Below, piece by piece: positions 10,386 through 31,996 of a DNA stretch of 44,327 nt (the first letter of the stretch is position 1; each line of letters begins with the position of its first letter). The stretch is taken from NCBI GenBank assembly GCA_016177915.1, contig JACOUI010000163.1, forward strand, positions 1-44,327, written 5' to 3'. A program made the position numbers and the translations under genes. The notes under the pieces are model-generated. The model was not told the origin of the DNA. It searched no databases and was given only the letters and a program-made list of their open reading frames with translations. The DNA comes from Planctomycetia bacterium (GTDB lineage: Bacteria > Planctomycetota > Planctomycetia > Pirellulales > S012-138).

Positions 10386-10419
10386 TAGGGCTCGGCGCTG
10401 GTTCTATTGTACGAGAAGG

Positions 10420-11828: not shown

Positions 11829-11999
11829 CTACCGGAGCTTCTTGCCGGCCCCGCTGATCTCCACCAGCTCGAACTTGCGGAACACCGTCGGGTCGTCGCA
11901 GAAGATCGCCAGCGACTCCTTGTCGTTGATCCGGTGCCAGGAGTCTGCCTTCAGCGCGGCAAAGTCGCCCTGGTAGCCCGTCACCAGGTTGTCGTTCAC
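11829..11999 (-). CDS. Possible 56-residue protein or 3' gene remnant
   Basis: The 281-residue ORF in the track is mostly a shadow, but its last part (NDNLVTGYQGDFAALKADSWHRINDKESLAIFCDDPTVFRKFELVEISGAGKKLR) has the composition of a real protein. The nearest start is a GTG at 11999. The same frame stays protein-like a little further upstream (RKDDSLQPPSLV), so it could be the tail of a gene whose 5' part was lost or frameshifted at the zinc-ribbon gene end (12062). No family recognised. Confidence 0.4.
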   Translation of the reverse strand: MNDNLVTGYQGDFAALKADSWHRINDKESLAIFCDDPTVFRKFELVEISGAGKKLR

Positions 12000-12061
12000 C
12001 AGGCTAGGCGGCTGGAGCGAGTCGTCTTTTCGGAGCGCAGCGGCGTGCGGCTTGCCGCCGG

Positions 12062-12370
12062 TCAGTACGGCTTCATCGCGTTCATGATCATCCACACGAT
12101 CAACCCGACCACGATGATGATCCCGATCCCGCCGATCGCGTTGATCACGATCGCCAGGTTCCGCTTCCGCGAGGGGAGGTGGGCCTGGGGCTTTTTCGTG
12201 TCGAACTCGTGGCCGCAGCCGTTGCAGATCACCGGTTTGCAGATCATGGCCCCGATCGTGCCCAGATACCACGGCCAGGGTCCCGTGCGGAACGACAGCC
12301 CGCCGCACTTGGGGCAGGGGGGGAGGCCAGGGGGACCGGAGGGCGGCGGATTCGGCGGTGGTTGGCTCAT
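12062..12370 (-). CDS. Small zinc-ribbon membrane protein
   Basis: A 102-residue protein with a proline-rich start, a four-cysteine zinc ribbon (CPKCGG ... CNGCGHEF) and one C-terminal membrane helix (LAIVINAIGGIGIIIVVGLIVWMIM). Likely a membrane-anchored zinc-ribbon protein of unknown function. A GGGCAGGG octamer (12312-12319, plus strand) coincides with the codons for the first CPKC knuckle. Confidence 0.8.
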   Translation of the reverse strand: MSQPPPNPPPSGPPGLPPCPKCGGLSFRTGPWPWYLGTIGAMICKPVICNGCGHEFDTKKPQAHLPSRKRNLAIVINAIGGIGIIIVVGLIVWMIMNAMKPY

Positions 12371-12550
12371 GGGTCCTCGATTTCGTTCGTGACGCGTCTG
12401 GCCGCATCGGCACGCAAACCGACATGGCTCTCCTGGCGCTTGGGTACGTTAGTAGCAGCCCTGACGACGCACTGCAAGCGGCGGCGCCGAAAAACCCGGA
12501 AGCACCGCTCAACTCGCGCGCTTCCCATTCGCGCGAAGCCAGCCTCGCTA

Positions 12551-12775
12551 TTATCCGAAGACGCCGTGTTCCAGACGTCCGATGAGGTCCTCGACCTCGC
12601 GGGCGCCGACTTCCGTCTCGGCCATTTCCATGGGCGAGCGTCCCGCCAGCCCTTTGCAAGGGGAGCTGAGCCACTTTCGCGCCGCCTCCACGTTGCCCTC
12701 AAAGAGCACGGCGGCCTTGTTGAGGAGGAGCGCGAACCGGCGTTCCGATTCCCGCGGCGCTGGCCGCTTTCCCAT
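12551..12775 (-). CDS. Xre/MbcA/ParS-type antitoxin domain protein
   Basis: A 74-residue protein. The C-terminal part, AARKWLSSPCKGLAGRSPMEMAETEVGAREVEDLIGRLEHGVFG, matches the toxin-binding domain (DUF2384) of antitoxins that partner RES-domain toxins. The N-terminal Xre DNA-binding half normally present is reduced to about 30 residues, and no RES toxin gene lies beside it. It lies 28 bases downstream of pdxA on the same strand. It could be an orphan antitoxin or a stand-alone regulator. Confidence 0.75.
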   Translation of the reverse strand: MGKRPAPRESERRFALLLNKAAVLFEGNVEAARKWLSSPCKGLAGRSPMEMAETEVGAREVEDLIGRLEHGVFG

Positions 12776-12803
12776 GGTCTTTTCCTCCAGTGTCGCATTC
12801 GTG

Positions 12804-14015
12804 TTAGTCGCCGCCCGCCAGCCGCGCCGCCACCCGGATCGCCTCGACCATGCTGCTCGTTTCCGCCTTGCCCTGCCAGGCCAGGTCGAAGGCCGTCCCG
12901 TGGGCCACGCTCGTCCGCACGATCGGCAGCCCCAGCGTGATGTTCACCGCCCGGTGCATCCCCAAGAGCTTGAGCGCGATGTGCCCCTGGTCGTGATACA
13001 TCGCCACGACTCCGTCGAAGGCCCCGTCGCGGGCCTGAACCATCAGCGTGTCCGTCGGTAGCGGCCCGACGACGTCCAGGCCCGCTCGCCGCGCTGCCTC
13101 GACCGCCGGCCCGATGATCCGCTGCTCCTCGTCGCCGAACAGGCCCTGCTCGCCGGCGTGCGGATTGAGAGCGCAGACGGCAATCCGCGGCCGCGAACCC
13201 TTGAGCCGCGTCATGATCGAATCGGCAAGTTTCGCCTTGGCGACGATGGCGTCGACCGTGAGATGCGAAAACACGTCCACAAGCGCCATGTGCAGCGTCA
13301 CGTGAACGACGCCCAGCCCGCCCGGCGAACGGATTGTCTCCGACGGGCCAAGGTAGAGCATCATGGCGAAGTCGCGCACGCCGCACAGTTCCGCCAGCAA
13401 TTCCGTGTGTCCCGGATACCGATGTCCGGCCTGCCATAGCGCCGTCTTGTGAATCGGTGCGGTGACAATCCCATCGACGCGGCCATCCAGCGCCAGCCGC
13501 GCCGCGGTAAGGATCGCATCATACGCCGCCTGGCCGGCCCGAGCGTCGATCGTGGCCGACGGCACGTCGAGCGCGTCGTCGCGGCACGCCGCAATGACCG
13601 GCATCACCTCCGCCGACGGCCGCGCCTCTTCGGGCGAGGTAACAACCGACACTGTAGGGTGGGCACCGCCCACCAATTCTCTTGCAGCCTGGGTGCCGCC
13701 CACCTCTGCTCCCCCCCTTTGTAAGGGGGGGCCAGGGGGGGGTGTAGGTGTAGGGCGGGCACGGCCCACCAGCTCTTGCGTCTCGCTCCCGGCAGGGCAG
13801 GGCAGGGGAGGCAGTGCGCTCCTCGAAAGCTGGGGGCGAGCTGCGCTCGACCCCAGCCACAGATTCACCGCCCGCCGCATGATCTGCGGATGCCCCACCA
13901 CCACCGGCCGGCAAACCTTATGGACCGCCGCCTGGCCCCACACGCCGGCAATGACCTCCGGCCCGACCCCGGCCGGGTCGCCCATCGTGATCAAAAGCAG
14001 CGGCCGATTCCCCAT
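12804..14015 (-). CDS. pdxA: 4-hydroxythreonine-4-phosphate dehydrogenase with repeat insertion
   Basis: NAD-dependent enzyme of pyridoxal phosphate synthesis. The start MGNRPLLLITMGDPAGVGPEV, the metal and substrate motifs GHTELLAELCG, CALNPHAGEQGLFG and VAMYHDQGHIALK, and the end GTAFDLAWQGKA are all canonical. The protein is 403 residues against about 330 for the family. The excess is a proline- and glycine-rich stretch of about 65 residues (about 56-120) between NLWLG and SVVTSPEEA, encoded by dispersed repeat DNA (13656-13850) that keeps the frame. The rest is intact, so the gene is probably functional. Confidence 0.93.
   Translation of the reverse strand: MGNRPLLLITMGDPAGVGPEVIAGVWGQAAVHKVCRPVVVGHPQIMRRAVNLWLGSSAARPQLSRSALPPLPCPAGSETQELVGRARPTPTPPPGPPLQRGGAEVGGTQAARELVGGAHPTVSVVTSPEEARPSAEVMPVIAACRDDALDVPSATIDARAGQAAYDAILTAARLALDGRVDGIVTAPIHKTALWQAGHRYPGHTELLAELCGVRDFAMMLYLGPSETIRSPGGLGVVHVTLHMALVDVFSHLTVDAIVAKAKLADSIMTRLKGSRPRIAVCALNPHAGEQGLFGDEEQRIIGPAVEAARRAGLDVVGPLPTDTLMVQARDGAFDGVVAMYHDQGHIALKLLGMHRAVNITLGLPIVRTSVAHGTAFDLAWQGKAETSSMVEAIRVAARLAGGD
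13656..13850. repeat. Composite repeat inserted in frame in pdxA
   Basis: The segment joins several repeat words found elsewhere in the window: tagggtgggcaccgcccacc, gggtgccgcccacc, a CCCCCCC-TTTGTAA-GGGGGGG hairpin, tagggcgggcacggcccacc, and GGGCAGGGCAGGG with two overlapping octamers (13795-13807). It adds about 65 codons without a stop. Confidence 0.85.
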
Positions 14016-14236
14016 GCCTCGATTCTACTCAGCAGGGCAGGGGGGAGGTGAGGGGGCCGTCCATCCGCTCGCTTCCCCGTACTCGTCATCGTACTCGCAC
14101 TCGATCTCCCTGGGTCCAGCGCACCCGCGCTGCCCCTGGTCGGGGCAGAGCAGGGGGGGTACGTTGGAATTCTCGTCCGCGAACGTGCGGTGAGGAGGGA
14201 CTCCAACCGCGCCGCCTGAAGGCGGAACTCCACCCC
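14016..14236. other. Repeat-rich divergent gap
   Basis: Between pdxA (minus) and the membrane protein (plus). It holds a GGGCAGGG octamer (14035-14042), a varied tactcgtcatcgtactcgcactcg tract, a ctgcccc-tggt-cggggcag hairpin, and actccaaccgcgccgcctgaaggcggaactcca, a cousin of the inverted repeat at 30678-30755. Promoters were not identified. Confidence 0.5.
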
Positions 14237-14827
14237 ATGAACCGCATCTTCCCCGTCCTCGCCCTCGTCGCCGCGGCGTTTCTTGTCGCCGCGATGATCG
14301 TCGGCCTCAACGTCGACGTGGCGACCCGCAGCGTGGGTATCGACGCGCTCGCGCCCGGCGTGTCCGCTTCCTCCGCCCAGCAGCCGCGCGACGATCAGGT
14401 TTTCCGGCTGCACTTTCTGCTCGGCGTCGCCTCCGGTATCGTCGTGATGCTCGTCCACGGCATTGCCGTCACCTACTTCATCGGCACCAGCCGCTGGTGC
14501 AAAGAAGTCGTGGCGGCCTACTCGCTCGACCCCGAACTGGCCAAGCGCAGCGCGCGCCTCAAGCGCCGGACGTTCCCGCTGGCACTCTTTTGCATGCTGG
14601 TAGTTGTGGCGATCGCGGCGCTCGGGGCGGCCGAGGACACGCGCGTGCCAGAAGTGCTCGACATCGCCTGGTCCGACCTGCACTATGTCGCCGCTTTCGC
14701 GGGCCTGGCCCTCATGCTCGCCGCCAACTACTTCCAGTGGCTGGCCATGTGCGACAACCAGCGCGTGATCGAGGAAATCGCCGCCGAGGTAAAGCGCGTC
14801 CGCCACGAGCGCGGCCTCGACGACTGA
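14237..14827 (+). CDS. Predicted membrane protein of unknown function
   Basis: A 196-residue protein from the ATG at 14237; the ORF track's longer start adds repeat-derived, arginine-rich residues. Four hydrophobic segments are visible: FPVLALVAAAFLVAAMIVGL, FLLGVASGIVVMLVHGIAVTYFI, TFPLALFCMLVVVAIAALG and YVAAFAGLALMLAANYFQWLAM. A charged C-terminal tail (VIEEIAAEVKRVRHERGLDD) follows. Histidines in the second and fourth segments could bind heme or metal, but no family was recognised. It is convergent with the ZIP gene. Confidence 0.8.
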   Translation: MNRIFPVLALVAAAFLVAAMIVGLNVDVATRSVGIDALAPGVSASSAQQPRDDQVFRLHFLLGVASGIVVMLVHGIAVTYFIGTSRWCKEVVAAYSLDPELAKRSARLKRRTFPLALFCMLVVVAIAALGAAEDTRVPEVLDIAWSDLHYVAAFAGLALMLAANYFQWLAMCDNQRVIEEIAAEVKRVRHERGLDD

Positions 14828-14876
14828 CCCATTTCTCCGACACACCCTCTTCTTCCGCTAGCCTCTTGCCTCCAGT

Positions 14877-15767
14877 CTATCCCCTCCAGCCCCCCCGTCC
14901 GTGCAGCATCGACTCCGCCAGCGCCACCGCCGCGGCCAAGAGCACGCCCGCTAACAGCGCCAACGACAGCTTCCACCGGTCGTGCTGATGGAATTGCAGC
15001 TCCGGCAACAGGTCGCTGAGCGAGATGCACAGGAACGCGCCGCACGAAAAGGCCAGCGCCCAGCCGACGACCTGGCTTTGCGCCGGCCGCAGGCCGGCCA
15101 GGGCGAACGCCGCCCCGCCCAGCGGCACGATGAGCGCGAACAGCAGATTGACCGAGTGCTGCCAGCCCAGCCGCCATCCGCCGCGCGACATGAGCGTGCT
15201 CAGCGTCAGCGCGTCAAACGGCTTGTGCAGCACGATCACGAGGAACATGCCCAGTCCGGCCAGCCAGGGCTGGTGCGGCAGGTCCTTGCGCGGCGCCATG
15301 CTGGCGGCCAGGGCCACTCCCTCGATCAGCGTATGCAGCGCCAGGCCCACCGCGGCGCCGCCCCACCGCAGGTGATGTGCAGAACGCAGCAGCCCGTCGC
15401 CGCGCGGGGCATCGTGCGCGTGCGGCGTGTACGCGTGATCGTGACGCAGGCCGGAGTCGTGACTGTGGGCGTGCTCGTGTGTCGTTTGCGCCGCGTCGGG
15501 CAGGTCGTGATGGTGAAAGCAGAAAAACCGCTCGATAAAAAACATCGACAAGAGGCCGAGCAGCACTCCGTAGCCGACCTCGAAAGACGACAGGTCCAAG
15601 AGCGCGTGCGGAAAAAGATGTAACAGGCTGATCCCCAGGATCACGCCCGCCACGAAGCTCAAGATGGTCTCCATCGAGCGGTGCGTCATGCGGATCCGCA
15701 GGGGGATCCAGCCGCCCAGCAGCGAAGCGGCTACAATGACGGCGCAATAAACCGAAAAGGCAAACAT
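14877..15767 (-). CDS. ZIP-family metal transporter
   Basis: A 296-residue inner-membrane divalent-metal (zinc or iron) transporter. The ZIP signature is in LALHTLIEGVALAASM, with the histidine and glutamate of the metal path, and a second metal helix has HKPFDALTLSTLM. The loop between helices 3 and 4 is histidine-rich (HHHDLPDAAQTTHEHAHSHDSGLRHDHAYTPHAH), as in other ZIPs that sense or collect metal. Confidence 0.93.
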   Translation of the reverse strand: MFAFSVYCAVIVAASLLGGWIPLRIRMTHRSMETILSFVAGVILGISLLHLFPHALLDLSSFEVGYGVLLGLLSMFFIERFFCFHHHDLPDAAQTTHEHAHSHDSGLRHDHAYTPHAHDAPRGDGLLRSAHHLRWGGAAVGLALHTLIEGVALAASMAPRKDLPHQPWLAGLGMFLVIVLHKPFDALTLSTLMSRGGWRLGWQHSVNLLFALIVPLGGAAFALAGLRPAQSQVVGWALAFSCGAFLCISLSDLLPELQFHQHDRWKLSLALLAGVLLAAAVALAESMLHGRGGWRG

Positions 15768-15802
15768 CGCTGCATTGTGATTGACGGCGGCAAAGGGCGG
15801 AA

Positions 15803-15941
15803 GGGCAGGGGAGAAGCAGGAGACAGGCGACAGGATCAGGAGTCAGGCGCAACGGCTTTCCCAACTCCTCGTTCTGCATTCTGTCTCTGCTGCCTCCTGA
15901 CTCCTGACTTTTGACCCCTGATTTCCGACCCCTGACTCACC
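15803..15941. repeat. Inverted low-complexity repeats upstream of dtd
   Basis: Starts with GGGCAGGG (15803-15810), then agcaggagacaggcgacaggatcaggagtcagg on one side and tgcctcctgactcctgacttttgacccctgatttccgacccctgactc on the other, the second being the complement-type of the first. Degenerate copies of the same AGGAGTCAGG word occur at 17290-17350 and 21428-21485. Confidence 0.7.
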
Positions 15942-16391
15942 ATGCGTGCCTGTGTCCAGCGCGTCGCCCAGGCCAGCGTCGCCGTCGCCGGCCACGTCGT
16001 CGGCCAGATCGGCAAGGGCCTCGTCGTGCTTCTGGGCGTTGCGGCCGACGACAAGCCCGACGACGCCCGCCAGCTCGCCGAAAAAATCGTCGGCCTGCGC
16101 GTCTTCGACGACGCCGAGGGCAAGATGAACCTGGGCATCCAGGAATCCGGCGGCGCGATGCTGGTCGTGAGCCAGTTCACGCTGTTGGGCGATTGCCGCA
16201 AGGGCCGCCGGCCCAGCTTCACCGACGCCGCCCAGCCCGCCCTGGCCGAGGCGCTCTACGAAGATTTCGTCGCCGAAGTCCGCCGGCAGGGCGTCGAAGT
16301 CGCCACCGGCAAGTTCCGGCAGCACATGCAGGTCTCGCTCGTCAACGACGGGCCGGTGACGCTGCTCCTGGACAGCCGGAAGGCATTCTGA
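15942..16391 (+). CDS. dtd: D-aminoacyl-tRNA deacylase
   Basis: A 149-residue proofreading enzyme that releases D-amino acids from mischarged tRNA. The two hallmark motifs are present: SQFTL (in [11 protein letters not shown]) and GPVT (in [11 protein letters not shown]). Start [13 protein letters not shown] is canonical and length is normal for DTD1. It stands alone, facing the convergent YdjM-like gene. Confidence 0.95.
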
Positions 16392-16455
16392 TTTTCTGAT
16401 CCGCACTTCATCCGTCCAACCCGCGCCATTCGTGTCCCATTTCCGGCCGCACGAG

Positions 16456-16483
16456 GGGTAGGGCAGGGCAGGGCAGGGGAGGG
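16456..16483 (+). other. Cluster of GGGNAGGG (KOPS-like) octamers
   Basis: In the dtd/YdjM-like gap, five overlapping octamers read rightwards on the plus strand: GGGTAGGG at 16456, GGGCAGGG at 16461, 16466 and 16471, and GGGGAGGG at 16476. This is the densest cluster in the window and the last one before the candidate dif site; all point towards it. Confidence 0.7.
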
Positions 16484-17586: not shown

Positions 17587-17603
17587 GGCACACGGCGTGT
17601 GCC
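17587..17603. repeat. GGCACAC-GGC-GTGTGCC palindrome
   Basis: A perfect 7-bp inverted repeat with a GGC loop. The GTG used by the ORF track as the CvpA start (17599) lies inside it, which argues for the ATG at 17626. Confidence 0.7.
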
Positions 17604-17625
17604 TCGCTTTGTGGAGATTCTTCGG

Positions 17626-18495
17626 ATGATCGCGTACGACATCCTGATGCTCGTCGTCGTCGTGGGCTACACGATCTTCGGGGCCGTCAAGGGCATGGCC
17701 TGGCAGGTGGCCACGCTCTGCTCGATCGTCGTCAGCTACTTCGCGGCGCTGAAATTCAGCGATCCGCTGGCGCCGCTGCTGAGCAAGGAGGCGCCCTGGA
17801 ACCGCTTCCTGGCCATGCTCATCATCTTTCTCGTGACGTCGCTCGTCATCTGGTTCATTTTCCGCGCCGTGTCGAAATTCATCGAGCGCGTCAAGCTCAA
17901 GGACTTCGACCGGCAGGTCGGGGCGCTGTTCGGACTCTTCAAGGGCGCGTTGGCCTGCGTGGCGATCACGTTCTTCGCCGTCACGCTCTCGCAGGCGGCC
18001 CGCGAGGCGGTCTTGAAATCTCAGTCGGGCTATTACATCGCGGTGCTTTTGAACAAGGCCGACCCGGTCATGCCGGAGCAGCTTCACGAGTTGCTCGGTC
18101 CGTACGTCCACCAGCTCCAGGAAAAACTGAATCAGCCCAATCCTCATGCCACGCCGGTCCGCGACGGTCGTGCAGAAGCGCCGGCCGGCGGAGCGTCGCC
18201 CGCGCCCGGTTCGACCGCTGGCGCCGGGCAAGGCGGCATCGGCCCCAGCGACCTGGCCCGCTTGCGGGCGATCGTCGCCGACCTGGAAAAATCCGAGCTC
18301 GACGAGGACGGCCTGCGCTGGGTGCGGGAGAACATTGCGCGGCTGGAAGCGCTGGCCGCGGAAAGCCCGACCGCCAGTGGAACGGTCGCCGACACCGACT
18401 GGACCGAGCGGGCCGCCAGGCTGGTCCGCGAATCGGAAAAGCTGCGGGGGTTGATCGAAGAAGTCCGGCGCACAAGCGAACCGGGTCGGCGTTAG
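17626..18495 (+). CDS. CvpA family membrane protein
   Basis: A 289-residue protein. The first 150 residues form the CvpA domain with hydrophobic segments (ILMLVVVVGYTIFGAVKG, FLAMLIIFLVTSLVIWFIF, GLFKGALACVAITFFAVTL). The C-terminal part is cytoplasmic or periplasmic, with a low-complexity linker (GGASPAPGSTAGAGQGG) and a helical tail. I chose the ATG at 17626, which has TGGAG eight bases upstream. CvpA was first linked to colicin V export; in most bacteria its role is envelope-related and poorly defined. Confidence 0.85.
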   Translation: MIAYDILMLVVVVGYTIFGAVKGMAWQVATLCSIVVSYFAALKFSDPLAPLLSKEAPWNRFLAMLIIFLVTSLVIWFIFRAVSKFIERVKLKDFDRQVGALFGLFKGALACVAITFFAVTLSQAAREAVLKSQSGYYIAVLLNKADPVMPEQLHELLGPYVHQLQEKLNQPNPHATPVRDGRAEAPAGGASPAPGSTAGAGQGGIGPSDLARLRAIVADLEKSELDEDGLRWVRENIARLEALAAESPTASGTVADTDWTERAARLVRESEKLRGLIEEVRRTSEPGRR

Positions 18496-19789: not shown

Positions 19790-20206
19790 ATGCAGACACG
19801 TTGGATTTGTCTCGCGTTTGCGCTGCTGTTTGGCTGCTCGTCGGAACAACCGATTCCTCCGGACCAGGCCTACGACCCGGCCAAAGTGCAGGGGCAGGTC
19901 GACAAGACGCTCCCGGCGGACGACCAAGAGCGGCAGGCCGCCCTGAAATCGGTCCTCGACCAGCTCCAGGAGGGTAACGATTTTGAAAGCCTGTTCCTGC
20001 CCGGCGTCACCTACGAGGAGAGCGAATCGTCATTTCTGGAGGGGGCGATCGGCGTGGCAAGCTGGTCGTTCGACGGCCGTCCCAGCGGCATCGACGTTCC
20101 CGTCGTCCTGCAGATGACGATGGACAGCGGCGAACTTAAGGAGCGGAAGCGTGTCTACCGCGTGGCCGGCTCATCCGGGGGCTACACGGTCAGCCGCGCG
20201 AAATAG
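19790..20206 (+). CDS. Small predicted lipoprotein
   Basis: A 138-residue protein from the ATG at 19790. The signal MQTRWICLAFALLFGCSSE ends in a lipobox (LFGC), so it is probably lipid-anchored. The rest (PDQAYDPAKVQGQVDKTLPADDQERQAAL ... KRVYRVAGSSGGYTVSRAK) has no family I can name. It follows the DUF1559 gene on the same strand, an arrangement often seen for small lipoproteins in planctomycetes, and could work with it. Confidence 0.8.
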   Translation: MQTRWICLAFALLFGCSSEQPIPPDQAYDPAKVQGQVDKTLPADDQERQAALKSVLDQLQEGNDFESLFLPGVTYEESESSFLEGAIGVASWSFDGRPSGIDVPVVLQMTMDSGELKERKRVYRVAGSSGGYTVSRAK

Positions 20207-20325
20207 GGCCGGCGGAATTCGGGCTGTTTCCAGCCGGAAGTTCGGCTCCAAACCGAACATAAGAGACATTATCGGACGTTGGTGCGGCGCACGGATGGCG
20301 CGGGTTAGACGAACGCGGATGTAAT
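20207..20325. other. Convergent gap holding the dif-like site
   Basis: The gap lies between the ends of the lipoprotein gene (plus) and accA (minus). It contains a gttcgg-ctccaaa-ccgaac hairpin (about 20240-20257) that runs into the dif-like sequence, and a ggatggcgcgggttagacgaacgcggatg word of a dispersed type also seen near 16400 and 36980. Confidence 0.5.
20252..20279. other. Candidate dif site (XerCD recombination site)
   Basis: The 28-mer divides into ACCGAACATAA, spacer GAGACA and TTATCGGACGT, the 11-6-11 layout of dif. The inner ends CATAA...TTAT are those of dif. The complement of the left arm, TTATGTTCGGT, matches the E. coli XerD half-site TTATGTTAAAT at eight of eleven bases; the right arm is more diverged. 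It lies between two convergent genes and exactly where the KOPS-like octamers change strand. Part of the left arm is also in a small hairpin, an alternative explanation. Confidence 0.6.
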
Positions 20326-21429
20326 CTACTCCGCGGGCGCGTCCGGACCCGCGACCGGCGAGGCGATGGGTTTTTCGCCGGCTGCCGGCTCGCCGTTGGC
20401 GGGCGAGGCCGTTGATCGTTCTGCTTCCGACACGTCTTCCGCTCGGTCGGGGAACACCTCGGGCGGCTGGCCCTCCAGGTAGACCCCCATTCGCCGGAAC
20501 TTTTCGTACCGCTCGGCAATGAGCCGGTCGAGCGGCACGCGCGAAAGCTCGCGCAGCTTCCGCTCCAGGTACATCTTCAGCGTGTAGGCCATCTGGTGCA
20601 CGTCGCGGTGCGCCCCGCCCAATGGCTCCTCCAGCACGTCGTCCACCACCCCCAGCCCCTTGAGATGACGCGACGTAATCTTTAGCGCCCGGGCCGCCTT
20701 CTCCTTGTGGGCGTCGCTCTTCCAGAGAATGCCGGCGCAGCCTTCCGGACTGATGACGGAGTAGTAGGCGTGTTCCAGAATGGCAATCCGGTCGCCCACG
20801 CCGATCCCTAAGGCCCCGCCCGAGCCGCCCTCGCCGATCACGACGCAAATGATCGGCGTCGGCAGCCGCGATAGCTCGAAAATGCACTGCGCGATCACCG
20901 ACGCCTGGCCGCGCTCCTCGGCCCCGATGCCCGGATACGCCCCCGGCGTGTCGATCAGCGAGACGACGGGAAGGCCGAATTTCGCGGCCAGCTTCATTTT
21001 GGCCAGGGCCTTGCGGTAGCCCTCGGGATGGGCGCAGCCGAAGTTGCAGGCGGTGCGCTCCTTGAGCGTCCGGCCCTTTTGCTGGCCGACGAACATCACT
21101 TGGAACTCGTCGAGCTTGGCGAAGCCGGTGAAGATGGCGTGGTCGTCGCCGAAGCAGCGATCGCCGTGCAGCTCGACGAACTCGTCGAACGCCAGCGCCA
21201 GGTAATCGCTCGACATCGGCCGTTCCGGGTGCCGCGCGACCTGCACGACCTCCCACGGCTCCAGGTTCGCGTAGATCTTCTTTAGCAGCTCGGAACGCTC
21301 CCGCCGCAGGCGGCGGATTTCGTCGAACGTCTCGGCGGTGCGATGCTCCGGCTGCTCGAGGCGCGCAATGCGGGCGTCGATTTCATAGACGGGCCGCTCG
21401 AAGGTAAGGCGCTGGACGAGCGTAGCCAT
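20326..21429 (-). CDS. accA: Acetyl-CoA carboxylase carboxyltransferase alpha subunit
   Basis: A 367-residue subunit that, with AccD, transfers carboxyl from biotin to acetyl-CoA, giving malonyl-CoA for fatty acid synthesis. Hallmarks: ELHGDRCFGDD, GRTLKERTACNFGCAHPEGYRKALAKMKLAAKFGLPVVSLIDTPGAYPG, and IGEGGSGGALGIGVGDRI. The last 40 or so residues are a low-complexity alanine/proline tail not needed by the family. The gene stands apart from the other acc genes. Confidence 0.96.
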   Translation of the reverse strand: MATLVQRLTFERPVYEIDARIARLEQPEHRTAETFDEIRRLRRERSELLKKIYANLEPWEVVQVARHPERPMSSDYLALAFDEFVELHGDRCFGDDHAIFTGFAKLDEFQVMFVGQQKGRTLKERTACNFGCAHPEGYRKALAKMKLAAKFGLPVVSLIDTPGAYPGIGAEERGQASVIAQCIFELSRLPTPIICVVIGEGGSGGALGIGVGDRIAILEHAYYSVISPEGCAGILWKSDAHKEKAARALKITSRHLKGLGVVDDVLEEPLGGAHRDVHQMAYTLKMYLERKLRELSRVPLDRLIAERYEKFRRMGVYLEGQPPEVFPDRAEDVSEAERSTASPANGEPAAGEKPIASPVAGPDAPAE

Positions 21430-21631
21430 TGGGGATCGGGAGTCAGGCCGCAGGAATCAGGGGACAGAAATCAGGAGTCAGTCCGCGTTCGAAAACCGCC
21501 TCCCCCCCTGCCCTGCCCTGCGCGCCGCCAGCGGCGCCAGCATGGGTTGGGTGGCATGGATTGTATCTAACATCGGAGCGGGCCCGCGGGCAATCGAGGA
21601 ATCCAGGAATTCAAGCGACGCCGTCAAGGCG
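21430..21631. repeat. Repeat-rich gap upstream of accA
   Basis: Contains cgggagtcaggccgcaggaatcaggggacagaaatcaggagtcag, a degenerate tandem repeat, and CCCCCCCTGCCCTGCCC with two overlapping minus-strand GGGCAGGG octamers (21506-21513 and 21511-21518), the first on the right of the dif-like site. Confidence 0.65.
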
Positions 21632-22465
21632 TCAGGCCGGCACTTTGGGCGCGGTCTTGAAGACGGGCGCCGCCGCCAGTTCGCGCTGAAGATGTTCCAG
21701 TTCGGGGCGCTCCGAAGGCTCCTTCGACAGCATGCGCAGCACGAGCTGCGAGAACTCCGGCGTGAGGTTGCGGTTGAAGAACTCCAGCTTCGGCGCGCTG
21801 CCGCGGAGGTGCTTCGTTAACAGCTCGTTGGTCGATGTGCCGGTGAAGGGCAGCTTGCCGGTCACCAGCTCGTAGATCGTGCAGCCGAAGCTGTAGACGT
21901 CGGAGGGCGAATCGGGGGCCTTGCGGCGGATTTGCTCCGGCGACATGTAGCTGGCCGTGCCCTGGATCGATGACGAGCGGCCGAAAAACCCCGCCAGCCC
22001 GGTCTTTCGCTTTTGCGCCAGCGCGAAGTCGATGAGCTTGACGTCGCCTTCCGGGGAGATGAGGAAGTTGTCGGGCTTGACGTCGCGGTGGACCCAGCCT
22101 TTGTCGTGCATGTGGGCCAGGCCCTGGGCGGCGTTGAGAATGATTTTTTGCGCCAGGGGAGCGAGGCGCTCGTGGCCCTTTCCGATGAGCTGCTTCAGGT
22201 TGGGGTGCGCGAAGAGCTCCATCACCAGGCACGGCTCGCGGCGGCCCTCGAAAAGCTCCAGCACCTTGATCACATTGGGGTGGTTGAGCTGCTTGCCGAC
22301 GCTGAATTCGCGGCGGAGGAGCGCGATCTGCACGTTGTCGAGCTTATCGGGAATGATCAGCTTGACGGCCACGCGCCGCCGCTCGCCGTCGTGGATCGCT
22401 TCCCAGATTTGCGAGGTCTGGCCCGTGCTGATGATATTCACAAGCCGGAAGGGGCCGACGTACAT
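21632..22465 (-). CDS. Serine/threonine protein kinase with atypical loops
   Basis: A 277-residue eukaryotic-type kinase domain without a membrane segment. The catalytic lysine (VAVKLI), HRDVKPDN loop, SPE motif (YMSPEQI) and SDVYSFGCTIYELVTG are present. Two features are unusual: the glycine-rich loop is replaced by ISTGQTSQIW, and DFG is DFA (LIDFALAQ). The aspartate remains, so activity is possible but may be weak. Start at the ATG at 22465 (MYVGPFRL); residues before it are repeat-derived. Confidence 0.9.
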   Translation of the reverse strand: MYVGPFRLVNIISTGQTSQIWEAIHDGERRRVAVKLIIPDKLDNVQIALLRREFSVGKQLNHPNVIKVLELFEGRREPCLVMELFAHPNLKQLIGKGHERLAPLAQKIILNAAQGLAHMHDKGWVHRDVKPDNFLISPEGDVKLIDFALAQKRKTGLAGFFGRSSSIQGTASYMSPEQIRRKAPDSPSDVYSFGCTIYELVTGKLPFTGTSTNELLTKHLRGSAPKLEFFNRNLTPEFSQLVLRMLSKEPSERPELEHLQRELAAAPVFKTAPKVPA

Positions 22466-22691
22466 GGGCGGAGAGAGTGCGGAGTGGGGAGTTTGGAGTG
22501 GGGAGCGACGAATTCCGGGCCTGTGCCCCCGATCCATGATTCTAATCGGGGCGTGGCGGCAATTGAATCCCGTCCGTAGGGCAGGCGGCCCGCCTGCCAT
22601 CTTTTTGTAGGACGGACTTCAGTCTGTCCTTCGTCGCCGCAGGGAGTCGCGCAAGAGGCCGGACTGAAGTCCGTCCTACATTACCGCGGCG
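22466..22691. repeat. Gap with three repeat elements
   Basis: Includes gagtgcggagtggggagtttggagtgggg (22478-22508), a gtagGGCAGGCGG-CCCGCCTGCC palindrome (about 22576-22599) and a long inverted repeat (22606-22680). It separates ccsBA from the kinase. Confidence 0.6.
22606..22680. repeat. Inverted repeat TGTAGGACGGACTTCAGTC
   Basis: Perfect 19-bp arms at 22606-22624 and 22662-22680 around a 37-base core. It lies just past the ccsBA stop and could fold into a strong stem in that transcript; no T tract follows, so it is a repeat first and a terminator only possibly. Confidence 0.75.
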
Positions 22692-25600
22692 TCAAGCGCC
22701 GCCGGGACGGCTAGTCGGCGCAGCGGGCGGAACCAAGGGCGGTGCGACCGGCAGCGCACCGAGAGCGGTCGGCAGGGGCGCGTCTTGCGGCGGCGGCGAC
22801 AACGACGCAACCAGCTTCTGCCACCAATGCTCCAGCGGCAACGCCCCCACGGCGATCGTGAATAACTGCGTGGCAACAAAAATCCCCAGGGCCAACAAGA
22901 CGCCTTCGGTAAAGCCGTACGAGTGCAACCCCACCCCCAGCTCGTTCACTCCGAACCAGGACCAGCTTGTCGTGATGTTCCCCGCGACGGCCAGCACCGC
23001 CAGGCCCCGCTCGCGGACCATCCCGCCCCAGCGGGCGTGAAGCACCAGCGCATTCCACAGCACGATGATCAGAGCGCCGTTTTCCTTGGGGTCCCAGCCC
23101 CAGAAACGCCCCCAGGAGTCGTCGGCCCACAGGCCGCCCAGCACTGTCCCGAAGAAACTGAAGAACAGCGCAAAGCACAGGACGCCGTAGATCGCGGAAA
23201 CCAGCACGCGCGCGAGGTCGGGCAAGAACCGGCCGCCGAAAAGGTAGACAATCCCCAAAAGTCCGGCCAGAAGCGTCGCCCCGTATCCGCTGGTGATGCA
23301 GACCACGTGCGTCGCCAGCCAGAACTGCGTGTCCAGCACGGCCTGCAGGACGGTGAACGTGTCGCCGTCGCCCGCCAGGAAATGCGAAATGAGCAGCGTG
23401 GCAAATCCGGCGACAGCGGCCACAAAATTGCCAAACCCCAAGCGGAAAACCGCCTCCAGGATGATGCCGAAGACTACGACGAGCCAGCCGATGTAAACGG
23501 CCGACGAGTAGAGATTCGTCACGGGCGGCCGCCCCGAGATGTAAATCCGCCCGACCAGCGCCGCGGTGTGGATCAGCAAGGTGAAGACGATCAGCCAGAA
23601 AGCGGTCCGCTGCAAGGGGCGGTGCCAGCCGAGCAGCGTCGCCAGCCAGCCCAGGATCGTGATGCCGAACGCCACCACGTAGATTCCTGAGGCCGAGGCG
23701 AACGCCTGAAAGTGGTTGAAGAACGCCTCGAACGACGACCGGCGAGCGCTGTAGTCCTGCGGCGGCTGCTCGCCCAGCAGCCGTTCGTAATGCGCCAGCC
23801 CGACGTTGAACGCCACCGCGTCGCCGTTCGCATAGGCGTCGAGGATCGCCTCCAAGGCGTCGGTCGACTCGTTGTGCTTTTGCGGCACGATGCGCGCCAT
23901 GGCGCTCGCGCTGAAGAGCGGCTCCCACGCCTGCTGGCCAAGTTCTTTCAGGGGATCCGCGATCGGGACGGCGTTGGGAACCTGGTCGTTGCGCAGGTCG
24001 CCCATCCGCAAAATCACGGTCCGAATCACCCGGTCCTTCTGCGCGGCCGACTGCGGATCGCTGGCGCGCTCTTCCGGCGTGGGGATCTGCGGCAACCTCG
24101 GGACGTCGAACGAACCCGAGATCCGGTGGAATAGCAAAATGCGGCGCTCCAGCTCCAAATAGCGCCGCTGCTCCGTCGACAGCAGCTTCTTGTCGATTTT
24201 GCGGGCCTTGCGTACCAGCTCCTCGAATTTTGGGAGCTCGGATTCCATCTCTGCCAGCGAATACCGCAAGCCCTCGCGCCGCGGAAGCCCGAACACGCCC
24301 AGCACCTCGGGGCTGTCGATCCGGAAAACCCGGTGATGCTGGCTGATCGCGCCGTTGGCGATGCTGTCCAGCAGCCACTGCACGGACGCGCGCCGCCGAC
24401 CGGCTGGATCGGTAAACCCCTCAGTGTCGGAAATGACCCGCAGCGAGTTGCGCGCCAGCGTGTCCATCGGCTTGACGCGCCCCTCGTACGCGACCGGGAG
24501 CTTGCCGAAGCGGTAGTAGTCGAAGCCGGCGAGGCCCTCGCGCAGCCCGTCGGCCGACGCGATCAGGTCCTTTTCCAGCTTCGCGCTGGTCCTTGCAAGA
24601 CCCTTCAGGTCGCCGGCGACGGAGGCTTGGCCCGGGTTGGCGACGAGGTCCTGCAGTGTTTTGGCGGCGGCCTTGGCGGCGTCACGCATCTTCTTGACGG
24701 CGGCCGTCTCCGGCGACTGGGAGGCTTCCGCCTCGCTTGACGCCATGGCCAGGTCATCGGCAATGGTCTGCTGCTGCTCGGCGAGGTCGGTCGCGCGCTT
24801 GGCGTCCAGCGACTTGCCTGCCGCGTCCCGCTGCGCCGCTTCCGTGACGGTACGCTGCTGCGCCAGGGCGAAGTCCAACAGACGGGCGAGACGCTCGCGC
24901 GCGGAGCCCTTGTCGCGCAGGATCGCTCCGGCCCGGTCAAGCTTCAAGGCAGCCGCCAGGGCCGCATTTCCAAACGCTTCGACCTCTCGCTGGTTGGCGC
25001 CGCCTGGCTGGTTCGTCTGGCGCTGGAACGTTTCGACAGCGGCCCGCCAGCCCTTTTCCCCATCCGCCAGTAGCTGCGCCGCACTGGCGTCGAGCGGGCG
25101 AACGGCGTCGACGCTCGGAAACTTCAGCTCTGCCGCCCGGCGAGCAAGGTCGGCCGACGCCGTCTCGTTGAGGCCCCCAGGTCGGCCCGCGTCCTTGACG
25201 ATTTGTGCGGCGTCGTCCACCGCCGACGAAAGCGCCTCGGCCTGCTTGCCCAACTCGCCCAGGGTAGGCCGGGGTGTAACGGTGCGGCTCGCCAAATAAG
25301 CGGCAAACACCAGCACGACGAAGGCCGGCATGCCGTAGTGGAATCCCCGTCGCACCCAAATCCGCCACGGGGCCTCGGGCGGCGCCGGCGGCGCGAGCGG
25401 CGGCGGAATTCGCGGCGCGTGCGACGCGCGATGCCGCGGGCCTTTGGCGCCGCGACCTTTGGCTGGCTCGGCCGCCGCGGGCGCCGCGGTCCGCAGCTCC
25501 GGGTTGACCCGGTAGACGAACCGGAACAATGTCAGCGTGAACTGCGCGATCATCCCCACGACCACGATCATGCAGGCGACGTACGGGATCATCCACCCGC

Positions 25601-27260
25601 CGTTGCTGACCACCGACAGCGTCGTCGATTCGCTCATCGTGCCTTCGCCGGGATGGTGCCCGCTTTGGTAAAACGTCTCGCCGCCGTAGCGCAGCGGATT
25701 GTTCATCCAGATGTGCTGCTCGTGCGATTGTCCGCGCGCGTCCTTGATCACGATCAGGGACGAATAGTCCCGCGGCTTGTCCGTGCCTAGATAGTTCACG
25801 CGGCTCGCGTCGTTGAGCGTCACCTGGTAGGGCTTGTACGTCCGCCTGAATCGCAGGAACACTTCGTACGTCGTGCGGCCGACGACGACGCGCTCCGGGA
25901 TACGATCTCCGAACTGCCCGGAAAGCCGAAGGGCCACCAGGTGCGTCGCCGGCGCGGCGCCCGGCCGCTCGAACTTGACGTAGGCGACCGAGAGGTCCGT
26001 TTCATCGCCGTCGGCGCCGGTCGCCGGCGGGCGTTCCACGGCCGCATATTTCAGGCCGATGCCCGCCGTCGCCAGCGTCTCTTCCCCCGGCTCCAGCTCG
26101 CGCAGCGCCGCGTTGCGGATGAACTTGATGCACTGAATCTTGAACGGGAGCAGCTTATGCTCCACCACGGGCCCCTGGCCGTCCGGCTGCGACGAACCGA
26201 ACACGCGACGCGTCAGCGAACGAAGCACACCCAGCGCCCCGCGGGAACCGGCGTCGCCGCGGAAGAGCTTCTCAGGCACCACGACGACCCGGTCCTCTTT
26301 GGGGTCCGACGGGTCGATCACGGCCAGCTCGAGGTCGTCGATGTGGTACAGGTGATTGACGGTCTGACCTTCGAAGATGTGCATCTGGCCTTCGACGGCC
26401 TGCGTGGCCACGAGCAGCTCGCCCAGCAGCAGCAGCCCGACGCCCGAGTGCAAAAGCACGACGCCGGCCCGCCGGCGGAAGAGGAAGATGCAGCCGGTGA
26501 GCAGCACGGCGCCGGCGAACGTGGCCTTCATGAGCTGCCAGAGGATGCGCATCGACGAGTCGTTCGGCGTCACGTCGTCGCCCAGCCAGAACAACGTCCC
26601 CAGCGCGACGGCCAGCAGAATCGCGGAAATCAGCAGGGTCCAGCGTTCGACGACGCGGCCCTTCTCGGCCAGAAAGAACCCCAGCACGGCGGCAATGTCG
26701 ATCGCCGCCAGGCAGATCTTGAACAGCTCCCACAGCGCCGGCCACTTGAGGAGCGGCTGCGCCTGAAAGCCGGCGCCCGTCAAACCGGGAACATCCATCC
26801 CGCTCACAATGACGAGCAGCGTGGCCACGAACCCCGCGCCGACCAGCAAAACCCCCATCACCAGCCGCTGGCCGCGCGCCTGTACCGTGAACCGCACCAG
26901 GTGCGCCGCAATCAGGTTTACAAACAGCGCAAAACCCAGCAGGAAACCGCCGGGGAACGGAAAGCCTCCGCGGATGTCGCCGACGTTTGGAAAGAACGAC
27001 TTGGGCAGGAAGACCTTCAGGTCGATCCAGGCGATCGGCGTGCGAAAATACTGCGCCAGGACGTCCTTGAGATTCTGCTCGGCCTGCGCCAGCGTCCCCG
27101 CGAGAATCAGAAAAATCGACAGCCCAAAGAGGACCACCGTCAGCTTCAGCGACGCCAGCGGCGAAAGCACGAGCTTGGTCAGGTCCCACAGGCCCAGAAT
27201 CCGGCGCTCGGCGTTCGCTGCCGGCGCTCGGCTGGGTTGTTCTTTGGAATCGCGCGACAT
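22692..27260 (-). CDS. Fused cytochrome c synthase (ResB-CcsA type)
   Basis: A 1522-residue membrane protein of System II cytochrome c maturation, which moves heme across the membrane and attaches it to apocytochrome c. The N-terminal part (about 1-570) is ResB/Ccs1-like: several membrane helices, a large extracytoplasmic domain, and MNNPLRYGGETFYQSGHHPGEG before a helix. A helical, alanine-rich segment (about 590-880) is inserted. The C-terminal part is CcsA-like, with the heme-handling WWD region GGLWADDSWGRFWGWDPKENGAL near residue 1380. Two-part fusions are usually nearer 1000 residues or less. The lipoprotein gene upstream is 10 bases away. Confidence 0.93.
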   Translation of the reverse strand: MSRDSKEQPSRAPAANAERRILGLWDLTKLVLSPLASLKLTVVLFGLSIFLILAGTLAQAEQNLKDVLAQYFRTPIAWIDLKVFLPKSFFPNVGDIRGGFPFPGGFLLGFALFVNLIAAHLVRFTVQARGQRLVMGVLLVGAGFVATLLVIVSGMDVPGLTGAGFQAQPLLKWPALWELFKICLAAIDIAAVLGFFLAEKGRVVERWTLLISAILLAVALGTLFWLGDDVTPNDSSMRILWQLMKATFAGAVLLTGCIFLFRRRAGVVLLHSGVGLLLLGELLVATQAVEGQMHIFEGQTVNHLYHIDDLELAVIDPSDPKEDRVVVVPEKLFRGDAGSRGALGVLRSLTRRVFGSSQPDGQGPVVEHKLLPFKIQCIKFIRNAALRELEPGEETLATAGIGLKYAAVERPPATGADGDETDLSVAYVKFERPGAAPATHLVALRLSGQFGDRIPERVVVGRTTYEVFLRFRRTYKPYQVTLNDASRVNYLGTDKPRDYSSLIVIKDARGQSHEQHIWMNNPLRYGGETFYQSGHHPGEGTMSESTTLSVVSNGGWMIPYVACMIVVVGMIAQFTLTLFRFVYRVNPELRTAAPAAAEPAKGRGAKGPRHRASHAPRIPPPLAPPAPPEAPWRIWVRRGFHYGMPAFVVLVFAAYLASRTVTPRPTLGELGKQAEALSSAVDDAAQIVKDAGRPGGLNETASADLARRAAELKFPSVDAVRPLDASAAQLLADGEKGWRAAVETFQRQTNQPGGANQREVEAFGNAALAAALKLDRAGAILRDKGSARERLARLLDFALAQQRTVTEAAQRDAAGKSLDAKRATDLAEQQQTIADDLAMASSEAEASQSPETAAVKKMRDAAKAAAKTLQDLVANPGQASVAGDLKGLARTSAKLEKDLIASADGLREGLAGFDYYRFGKLPVAYEGRVKPMDTLARNSLRVISDTEGFTDPAGRRRASVQWLLDSIANGAISQHHRVFRIDSPEVLGVFGLPRREGLRYSLAEMESELPKFEELVRKARKIDKKLLSTEQRRYLELERRILLFHRISGSFDVPRLPQIPTPEERASDPQSAAQKDRVIRTVILRMGDLRNDQVPNAVPIADPLKELGQQAWEPLFSASAMARIVPQKHNESTDALEAILDAYANGDAVAFNVGLAHYERLLGEQPPQDYSARRSSFEAFFNHFQAFASASGIYVVAFGITILGWLATLLGWHRPLQRTAFWLIVFTLLIHTAALVGRIYISGRPPVTNLYSSAVYIGWLVVVFGIILEAVFRLGFGNFVAAVAGFATLLISHFLAGDGDTFTVLQAVLDTQFWLATHVVCITSGYGATLLAGLLGIVYLFGGRFLPDLARVLVSAIYGVLCFALFFSFFGTVLGGLWADDSWGRFWGWDPKENGALIIVLWNALVLHARWGGMVRERGLAVLAVAGNITTSWSWFGVNELGVGLHSYGFTEGVLLALGIFVATQLFTIAVGALPLEHWWQKLVASLSPPPQDAPLPTALGALPVAPPLVPPAAPTSRPGGA

Positions 27261-27270
27261 GGCCTCTTCC

Positions 27271-28341
27271 TCAATTCTGCGAGAACTTCAGCGAGCGGAT
27301 GAACGACTGGAAGTTCGACCTCTCGCGCTGCGCCAGGGCCGAGTCGCCCTTGAGCTTCACGAACCACGCCTTGCCGCCGCGGTACTGAATCACGCCGAGG
27401 ATCGCGAGCGGCCGCGGCGAATCGGAAGGCCCGACCAGCTCCATGTACGCGGCTTCCTTGCCGTCGACCTCGATTTTCTGGACCGCGCCGGGCAGCTCCG
27501 CTTCCGCAATATCCGGCAGGCCGACCTCGCCGCGCCAGCGGTTGACGTTGGGCAGGAGCGCGTTGACGTCGGCCACGAGATCGATGACCGTCACGTCGAT
27601 CCGCTGCTCGCCGTCCTGCACGACGAATGCCGCCTTCCGCATCGCGGTGAGTTGGCCCTCCGACCAGCCGTCGGGCTTGGTGAACGAGACGACGCGCTGT
27701 TGCGGCGCGGCGCCGGCAGGCGACGACGCGCCCGCCGCCGCGCCCCCTCCCCCCTGCCCTTTCACGTCCACAATGCTCGCCGCCAGTCCGTCTTCCAGCG
27801 GCACTTGCCTGACCATGCTGGCAAGCTGCCCGGCGTCGATCGGATTCTCGCCGACCTGTTCCAGCCAGCGGTTGACGTTCATCAAGACATACGCCGCGTA
27901 GTCGTCGTCCACCCTCGTCAGCGCCGTGACGCTGAGCTCGAGCCGCTTGCCGCCGGAGGGAACCGTGATCGTGGCGAATCGCTGCGGGTTGTCGCGCGAC
28001 TCGTCCCAGCCGGCCGGCCGCTGCCAGGCCGGCTCGCCGTTTTCGCCGAACTGCACCGTCTGCACAAACGACGTGAAGGACTGCACGTGCTCCCCGACCG
28101 CCTCGACCGGTCCAGAAAGCTTGAAGAACCAGGCGTTGTCGCCGTGCGGGACGATCGCGGCCAGGATGCGGCCGCCGGCAAGCCGCGGCATCGTCGCGGG
28201 ACGCGCTCCGCCGGTGAAAAAGACCTCGTCGTCGTCCTTGGGCGCCGTGTAGGCCGTGATCTCGTCGCGCTGGCACCCGCCGGCCAGAAGCAGCCAAGTG
28301 AGCCCGATGGCCAGAAGCAGACGCGGCAAAGGCAGTTTCAC
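27271..28341 (-). CDS. Lipoprotein beside the cytochrome c synthase gene
   Basis: A 356-residue lipoprotein (signal MKLPLPRLLLAIGLTWLLLAGGC) from a GTG start. It seems to hold two copies of one domain: WFFKLSGPVEAVGEHVQSFTSFVQTVQF resembles WFVKLKGDSALAQRERSNFQSFIRSLKF, and LMNVNRWLEQVGENPID resembles LPNVNRWRGEVGLPDI. A glycine-rich linker (KGQGGGGAAAGASSPAG) between the copies carries two minus-strand KOPS-like octamers (27745-27759). Only 10 bases separate it from the synthase gene, so they probably form an operon; a role in heme or cytochrome handling is inferred. Confidence 0.85.
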   Translation of the reverse strand: MKLPLPRLLLAIGLTWLLLAGGCQRDEITAYTAPKDDDEVFFTGGARPATMPRLAGGRILAAIVPHGDNAWFFKLSGPVEAVGEHVQSFTSFVQTVQFGENGEPAWQRPAGWDESRDNPQRFATITVPSGGKRLELSVTALTRVDDDYAAYVLMNVNRWLEQVGENPIDAGQLASMVRQVPLEDGLAASIVDVKGQGGGGAAAGASSPAGAAPQQRVVSFTKPDGWSEGQLTAMRKAAFVVQDGEQRIDVTVIDLVADVNALLPNVNRWRGEVGLPDIAEAELPGAVQKIEVDGKEAAYMELVGPSDSPRPLAILGVIQYRGGKAWFVKLKGDSALAQRERSNFQSFIRSLKFSQN

Positions 28342-28687
28342 GTGGGCTGCTCCGCTCGTGATCGCGCCGCCGGCTGAGGCTGCCGGGCGGAGTAAGTCTC
28401 TGCGTCCGTGCGCGGCGGCGAGATTCTCATTTTCGCCGGTCGCAAAGAAGGATGGGGCAAGCTGTCGGGCAGTGTGGAAAGCTGGCAGGCCAGGCTGGCG
28501 AGCCAGGCCGAGGCGGGGCCAATCATGGGGCCAATCGCGGCGTCACTTCATTATAGTCGCGCCACGCGACGGCCGTACAGGCGTCGACCGCTGCACTATC
28601 GTCGTTGCCGCCCCGTCAAGAAACAAAAACCGGGGGGAAACTCCCCCCGGCTGGGAAGCTCAACGGTGAACGGTGCGGGCAAACCCG
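28342..28687. other. Intergenic region with a -10 candidate and terminator
   Basis: On the minus strand a TATAAT (about 28550-28555) could serve the lipoprotein/synthase operon, but no matching -35 was found and the leader would be about 200 bases. The right end carries the terminator of the upstream gene (28625-28650). No ORF is supported. Confidence 0.4.
28625..28650 (-). terminator. Rho-independent terminator
   Basis: On the minus strand CCGGGGGGA-GTT-TCCCCCCGG is followed by TTTTTGTTT, a classic GC-rich hairpin and T tract about 40 bases past the stop of the HTH-membrane protein gene. Confidence 0.85.
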
Positions 28688-30004
28688 CTATTTGAACATG
28701 CTCATCACCGCATCCATGACCGGCGTCGCCACCGGGCCGGCGCCGTCCCAGCTCCACATGTTGCGGGCCATCTCGAAGACCATCACGCCCGTCAGGGCCA
28801 CGAAGATGAACGTGAAGGAGGCAAAGACCATCTCGAACCAGCCGTATCGCGCCTGGGCCACCATCGGGGCGCCCATCATCATCGGGCCGGCGATCGGCTG
28901 CGCGGCGCCCATGGCCAGCGAGGCGTCGGGCTGCAGCACGCCCATCGTCTGCACGTCTTCGCCCAGCAGCGTGGGGGCCTGGTCTTCGGCCTGCGGCTCT
29001 TCGGTGTCCAGCGCGATCACTTGCGAGCCGGAGCTGTCCGACTCCTGGTCGTCCAACTCGAGCATCGGCGTGAGCAGGAAGTCGTCGTCGCTGGAAAGCT
29101 CCTGGATTTCAGCGGAGCCGGAGCCGCCGCCTTCCTTCTCGCCGGCGCCGAGCGTCAGGGGCTCCTCGAGGTTCAGGCCGCTGTCCTTGGCCGCCATCAG
29201 GTTGATGCCGCTGTCGGTCAGCGCGGGGCCGGAGCCGGTGCCGCTGCCGGCGCCCAAAACAAGATCGTCGTCCTCGAACACGGTCTTGCTGTCGCCGAGC
29301 TTTTTGGCGGAAGAGCCGGTCGCCGGCTTGGGCGTGTCGCCGGCCAGCTTCAGGTCGGAGGTGAGGTTCAAGTCCGAATCGAGCGTCAGGTCGCTGCCGG
29401 GACGCAGCTCGACGGTCGGCTCGCCGCCCAGGCGGCGCTTGCTCGAACCACCGGGGACGTTCGTCTTGCTCGAGCCCAGGTCCAGGGGCAGCGCATCGGC
29501 GCCCGGTTCCAAATCGACGAGCTCCAGGTCGCTGCTGCCTTTCTTCAGGCTCCCGCTGGAGCCGGAGGGAACGAGCTTGACGTCGCTGCCGGTGCCGCTG
29601 TCGGGCACGAGCGAAACGCCGCTGCCGGGCGCCTCTCCGCCCGCCGCAGCCAGCTTCAGGTCGCTGTCCGGCTTGGCCTTCTCGCCGGTCTTGCCGATGA
29701 TCGTCGACGTGGTCGGGCCGGACTCGCCGAGGGCCTCTTCGCTCAAGAGCACCTGGTCGGAGCCTTTCTCCTCCTCGCCCTTGTCGTCCAAGGTGACGGG
29801 CAGGTTGTAGACGCCGCTGCCGACGCCGGACGGGCTGCCGCCGCTGAAGCGCGCCTTGTACGACTCGACGTCGGACTTCTTGAACTTCCACGACTGGCCG
29901 TCGCGGATCCCGAAGATGTCGCGCCGCTCGCGCATCTGGTTCAGTTCGTCCACACTCACGCCGAGCATGGCGGCGGCTTCTTCCATGCTGATGAGCTGAG
30001 CCAT
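28688..30004 (-). CDS. HTH-domain protein with acidic repeats and membrane anchor
   Basis: A 438-residue protein from the ATG at 30004 (GGAG upstream). Residues 1-55 are an excisionase/MerR-like helix-turn-helix (ISMEEAAAMLGVSVDELNQMRERRDIFGIRDGQSWKFKKSDVESYKARF). A long middle of serine-, glycine- and aspartate-rich repeats follows (units such as SDLELVDLEPG, SDLTLDSDLNLTSDLKL). Near the C-terminus is one membrane helix (VFASFTFIFVALTGVMVFEMA). The layout suggests a membrane-tethered DNA- or protein-binding factor, but the role is unknown. A rho-independent terminator ends the transcript. Confidence 0.88.
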   Translation of the reverse strand: MAQLISMEEAAAMLGVSVDELNQMRERRDIFGIRDGQSWKFKKSDVESYKARFSGGSPSGVGSGVYNLPVTLDDKGEEEKGSDQVLLSEEALGESGPTTSTIIGKTGEKAKPDSDLKLAAAGGEAPGSGVSLVPDSGTGSDVKLVPSGSSGSLKKGSSDLELVDLEPGADALPLDLGSSKTNVPGGSSKRRLGGEPTVELRPGSDLTLDSDLNLTSDLKLAGDTPKPATGSSAKKLGDSKTVFEDDDLVLGAGSGTGSGPALTDSGINLMAAKDSGLNLEEPLTLGAGEKEGGGSGSAEIQELSSDDDFLLTPMLELDDQESDSSGSQVIALDTEEPQAEDQAPTLLGEDVQTMGVLQPDASLAMGAAQPIAGPMMMGAPMVAQARYGWFEMVFASFTFIFVALTGVMVFEMARNMWSWDGAGPVATPVMDAVMSMFK

Positions 30005-30051
30005 GAGTTCTCCCGCTTGCTTGTCGACACGCGCGGCCGCGGTTCGGCGCG

Positions 30052-30399: not shown

Positions 30400-30424
30400 A
30401 AGTCACCTCGCAGGCGAAAGATGC

Positions 30425-31989: not shown

Positions 31990-31996
31990 GCGGGCG

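Follow-up and report, generated by a model that had tools for sequence, protein, structure and literature searches.

The 28-bp sequence at positions 20252-20279 of the stretch of DNA analyzed here (44,327 nucleotides in all, hereafter the window) almost certainly serves a Pirellulales-type planctomycete as its chromosomal dif, the site of XerCD-mediated resolution of chromosome dimers. An earlier reading of this DNA, made from the sequence alone, had proposed a candidate dif at this location, and the proposal was supported by the uniqueness of the site in its genome, the conservation of the 28 bp across the order, the likeness of its half-sites to those of published dif sites, the convergence of a KOPS-like octamer on the site in relatives as well as in the window, and the presence of genes for both XerC and XerD. 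The sequence, its uniqueness and conservation, the octamer convergence, the XerC and XerD genes, and the FtsK gamma domain in relatives were all computed directly. The window is contig 147 of a planctomycete draft genome that totals 6.03 Mb across 387 contigs.

The site, which reads ACCGAACATAAGAGACATTATCGGACGT in full, is arranged 11-6-11 as ACCGAACATAA-GAGACA-TTATCGGACGT, and the inner ends of its arms, CATAA and TTAT(C), form an inner dyad around the 6-bp centre. The central hexamer differs among families, with GAAACA, CAGACA and others in its place. As the sequence-only reading had described, the 28-mer lies between convergent genes, in a 119-bp gap between gene ends at 20206 (plus strand) and 20326 (minus strand). 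The coordinates of the features are collected in Table 1.

Table 1. Features of the window at and around the predicted dif site.
Feature	Position	Strand	Sequence	Basis or remark
GGGCAGGG x10, pointing toward dif from the left	3889..16478	+	GGGCAGGG	Starts: 3889, 6561, 12312, 13795, 13800, 14035, 15803, 16461, 16466, 16471
cvpA-like gene	17599..18495	+		Pfam PF02674, E=3.6e-24
Small lipoprotein-like ORF, next to dif on the left	19790..20206	+		Local to own genome
Palindrome-equivalent position	20226..20239		GTTTCCAGCCGGAA	8/14 to consensus; degenerate or absent here
Flanking A, position 0	20251..20251		A	A in 109/138 loci, 0.97 bits
dif site	20252..20279	-	ACGTCCGATAA-TGTCTC-TTATGTTCGGT (XerC-to-XerD, minus strand)	Copy number and conservation
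Predicted XerD-binding half-site, left arm	20252..20262	-	TTATGTTCGGT (minus strand)	Likeness to E. coli and family f21; binding predicted
Central hexamer, between predicted strand-exchange points	20263..20268		GAGACA	Role from known dif layout
Predicted XerC-binding half-site, right arm	20269..20279	-	ACGTCCGATAA (minus strand)	Identity to Anaeromyxobacter; binding predicted
Flanking TG, positions 29-30	20280..20281		TG	T in 118/138 loci (1.34 bits), G in 93/138 (0.76 bits)
accA (acetyl-CoA carboxylase carboxyltransferase alpha), next to dif on the right	20326..21429	-		Pfam PF03255, E=3.4e-132; neighbour conserved in the order
GGGCAGGG x13, pointing toward dif from the right	21506..44067	-	GGGCAGGG	Positions: 21506, 21511, 27752, 30758, 30763, 31627, 36344, 36605, 41711, 43032, 43908, 43913, 44060

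One exact copy of the 28-mer was found in the 6.03-Mb draft, as the sequence-only reading had expected, and no other sequence in that genome came within three mismatches. At up to three mismatches the site was present in 50 of the 58 genomes of the order (own genome included), representing 18 of 20 families, and it was single copy in 48 of these 50; its position, which the same reading had marked for comparison among relatives, recurred in most of them as the gap between cvpA and accA. The reversed-control 28-mer gave zero matches across the 58 genomes. Most genomes of the order outside the 50 carried one diverged copy each. Across the phylum, a strict pattern matched 60 of 392 genomes, and a sequence-only profile built from 44 variants recovered single hits (E ~1e-5) in four of four genomes of family f7 and one of two genomes of family f11, all of them missed by the strict pattern.

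Over 138 loci, the mean information content was ~1.6 bits per column within the 28 bp, where any base that the search patterns fixed is bound to be conserved, and 0.05-0.2 bits outside; at the edges and in the flanks, which the patterns did not constrain, the only conserved bases beyond the 28 bp were the A at position 0 and the T and G at positions 29-30. The XerC arm was identical in 21 of the 24 distinct sites of the order and carried a single-base change in the other three. Two draft genomes each contained two copies of dif, on contigs C38 and C186 in G003 and on contigs C29 and C380 in G035. Three of these four copies lie within ~310 bp of a contig start, and the double copies perhaps reflect an element integrated at dif.

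The sequence-only reading had rested in part on an 8/11 match between the left arm (minus strand) and the XerD half-site of E. coli dif. The match itself was reproduced, but it carries no significance on its own: arm scores of 13 of 22 against E. coli dif recurred in several parts of the window, and shuffling the window gave scores of 14-16. Similarity to E. coli, being at chance level by itself, was dropped as evidence, and the 28-mer stands above chance because of its copy number and conservation rather than this resemblance. The polarity of the site was read from two other comparisons. The left arm of the sister family f21 is ACTTAACATAA, the reverse complement of which, TTATGTTAAGT, agrees with E. 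coli at 10 of the 11 positions of the XerD half-site, and the right arm on the minus strand equals, at 11 of 11 positions, the XerC half-site in the dif published for Anaeromyxobacter dehalogenans (PMC2731167). Together these matches mark the left arm as the predicted XerD arm and the right arm as the predicted XerC arm. Complete 28-mers of the same pattern, ACGTCCGATAATATATATTATGTTAACT, were found in Alicyclobacillus, and 28-mers with the same XerC arm also occurred in assemblies that carry the labels Armatimonadota, Omnitrophota, Chlamydiae and Vampirovibrio. These occurrences link the planctomycete site with dif sites at large.

All 23 occurrences of GGGCAGGG in the window point toward dif, with strand counts (plus/minus) of 10/0 on the left and 0/13 on the right. 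The strand switch that the earlier reading had noticed near 20.3 kb is thus real, and falls between 16478 and 21506. Because some occurrences overlap in tandem (such as those at 16461, 16466 and 16471), they represent ~17 independent sites, all of which share the orientation toward dif. The switch was repeated in relatives: with the window left out, the octamer was oriented 128 times toward and 13 times away from dif, ranking first of 32,624 octamers. In G009, which is a single 6.65-Mb contig, the octamer flips between 2,040,521 and 2,051,849, and dif is located at 2,049,536.

The expectation of a GC-skew inflection or maximum at the site either failed or was uninformative. No turn was observed at dif across the window, and among relatives the skew was weak and gave no consistent turn there. 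Sampled cumulative skew reached its maximum ~0.5 Mb beyond dif in G020 (82 stretches) and showed no turn in G009 (42 stretches, 0-4.4 Mb); GC skew was dropped as a terminus marker, as neither sample gave a useful turn at dif. This result is regarded as a weak test rather than a refutation, because Kono et al. (2011) found no correlation between skew strength and how far the GC-skew shift point lies from dif, and suggested that termination of replication is not strictly confined to dif.

The own genome encodes one XerD and one XerC above the curated NCBIfam cut-offs, namely a C261 protein with 332.7 bits to TIGR02225 (XerD; cut-off 329.6) and a C241 protein with 350.9 bits to TIGR02224 (XerC; cut-off 335.15). 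No canonical FtsK, motor or gamma domain, was found in this draft, only a distant FtsK/SpoIIIE-like protein. FtsK gamma was present in 29 of 29 other relatives, in each case above the cut-off, and aligned to solved FtsK gamma domains, including the crystal structures 2ve8 and 2ve9. Because four of four relatives from the same family have FtsK gamma, an assembly gap is most likely the cause of its absence from the draft. The FtsK of Planctopirus limnophila has been described as being without PF17854, which was named the gamma domain in that study, with PF09397 named the linker (PMC12283558); under current Pfam definitions PF17854 corresponds to FtsK alpha and PF09397 to gamma, and each of the two FtsK proteins inspected contains both domains. 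The C-terminal domain of FtsZ was found in none of 30 genomes, with 13 of 14 control genomes positive. Division without FtsZ has been reported for Planctomycetes, and FtsK has been reported to be the sole essential gene of the dcw cluster in P. limnophila.

Pirellulales-type loci widely share the arrangement cvpA - dif - accA - protein kinase. Among 88 such loci, 52 have accA on the right side of dif, encoded on the minus strand, and 50 have cvpA, the commonest left neighbour in the order, on the left side, encoded on the plus strand. In the window, a DUF1559 gene (~18670-19665) and the small lipoprotein-like ORF lie as extra genes between cvpA and dif. DUF1559 genes are typical of the planctomycete phylum. 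The lipoprotein-like ORF had no Pfam match, and a counterpart was found in one of the 88 loci.

Since most Pirellulales-type sites have a cvpA-like gene and accA as neighbours, the 28-mer might be considered a regulatory or terminator element of these convergent genes that resembles dif by accident. However, the same 28 bp was found without those neighbours and in other phyla, its distance to the adjacent genes ranges from 18 to 3398 bp, and its layout and both half-sites match dif, which makes such an element exceedingly improbable. There is likewise hardly any chance that the site is a ter-like replication-fork barrier rather than a recombination site: the location where strand-oriented words switch would suit a barrier, but the 28-mer is single copy and has the two-armed inverted-repeat layout of known dif sites. 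Known fork traps use several polar copies.

A mobile dif-like site, such as a pdif or IMEX attachment site derived from a plasmid module or from a phage exploiting Xer, would be consistent with the occurrence of the dif core in 41 viral contigs and on at least four contigs of a termite-gut assembly. Such sites are recognized by multiple copies or a flanking mobile module; the site in the window is single copy and has conserved chromosomal neighbours. Across the order, moreover, there is a single copy per genome, which lies at the point where the polar octamers converge and, for the majority of genomes, in the gap between cvpA and accA; a mobile origin is therefore very unlikely.

Several occurrences of the dif core were recorded as observations in their own right. 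In the termite-gut-type assembly Pcl387_bin141, the core on the four or more contigs (L106, L111, L137, L145) is followed by AACAGAAT or AACAAAAT, for which the candidate explanations are an element that carries dif and is present repeatedly, or else a mixed bin. Two inverted dif-like sites 76-86 bp apart were present on each of two contigs, L103 (2027 and 2113) and L132 (4962 and 5038). Some of the 41 viral contigs (L315-L355, for example L319, L343 and L352) carried the full planctomycete-type site, and these contigs are candidates for phages using host Xer or for host DNA in viral bins.

In about half of the Pirellulales-type dif sites, an imperfect palindrome near TTTTCCCGGGAAAA is located at a fixed spacing on the XerD side, ~10-26 bp upstream of dif (loci L003-L021 and L076-L194), with its centre at -17 to -20 relative to dif in 53 loci. 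A palindrome profile from 29 training loci was applied to 54 held-out, non-redundant Pirellulales-type loci with a 1% shuffle threshold; 29 of the 54 exceeded the threshold, and 28 of these were centred at -17 to -19. In the controls, the profile was found in 2 of 53 downstream flanks and upstream of 2 of 57 other dif loci. Mutual similarity over 50 loci was 0.628 for the palindrome versus 0.263, that is, none, for the flank from -120 to -61. The palindrome tracks dif and not the genes, because its spacing to dif is fixed and the gene distances vary over the 18-3398 bp given above. It was nearly absent from loci without the cvpA/accA neighbourhood (2 of 17), so that either lineage or function may account for its distribution. 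The exact sequence TTTCCCGGGAAA occurred elsewhere in 0-4 copies per genome and is therefore not a frequent genome-wide word.

A palindrome at the equivalent position of the window appeared plausible by eye, but was dropped after a profile trained without this locus failed to find it, with 47% of shuffles scoring as well. A role of the palindrome as an RNA terminator of cvpA/accA was not favoured, as the foldings vary by locus and the spacing is fixed to dif; a hairpin formed from the palindrome alone would be a short A-U-rich stem. The centre of the palindrome lies 17-20 bp outside the XerD arm, a distance of ~three helical turns from the middle of dif. We tentatively raise the possibility, which we consider rather doubtful, that the Pirellulales dif has a built-in accessory palindrome bound by a factor that would control Xer recombination in cells dividing without FtsZ. 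Accessory elements are regarded as dispensable for proteobacterial dif sites (PMC2731167), and likewise for chromosomal XerCD dif sites with a 6-bp centre.

Protein binding, the order of strand exchange, activation by FtsK and the cellular role of the site are drawn from the E. coli system. By this analogy, an odd number of crossovers would fuse sister chromosomes, and FtsK would load on GGGCAGGG and be steered from both sides to the convergence point. XerD would occupy the left arm (minus strand) and XerC the right arm, the gamma domain of FtsK would activate XerD, and XerD, followed by XerC, would swap strands in the hexamer between two copies of dif, thereby splitting the dimer. In planctomycetes, dimer resolution would proceed without FtsZ.

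In the dif survey of Kono et al. (2011), sites were predicted for most phyla, but prediction was unsuccessful for Planctomycetes (0 of 1) and for Cyanobacteria. No later planctomycete dif was found in the literature searched, which lay outside subscription papers and databases such as DoriC. The conserved site and polar octamer described here fill this gap for one order and much of the phylum. The site also marks the convergence of polar sequences where GC skew is too weak to show the terminus, and with dif and KOPS defined it becomes possible to test which process makes FtsK essential in these bacteria: division, dimer resolution, or the two together.

Compared with known systems, the Pirellulales site resembles plasmid cer and psi, which use the accessory proteins PepA, ArgR and ArcA (PMC5357621), in having a conserved element that adjoins the core at a fixed spacing. 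It differs from them in that the accessory DNA of cer/psi spans ~180 bp, whereas the palindrome spans ~14-16 bp, in that the centre of cer is 8 bp instead of 6 bp, and in that the palindrome is not recognizable in the own window. With E. coli dif it shares the layout, the 8/11 XerD half-site and TGT on the XerC side of the centre, whereas the XerC half-sites agree at 5 of 11 positions only; the planctomycete host also differs from E. coli in having no FtsZ. The polar octamer fits the consensus of the E. coli KOPS, GGGNAGGG. Proteobacterial dif sites are more strongly conserved in the XerD arm (PMC2731167), whereas in the planctomycete set the XerC arm, which the search patterns favoured, was nearly invariant. 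The dif of Anaeromyxobacter dehalogenans, ACGTCCGATAATATGGATTATGGTAACT (Carnoy and Roten 2009, PMC2731167), differs in the central hexamer and in the outer bases of the XerD arm, but has the same 11-6-11 layout, the same TTATG core of the XerD half-site and an identical XerC half-site.
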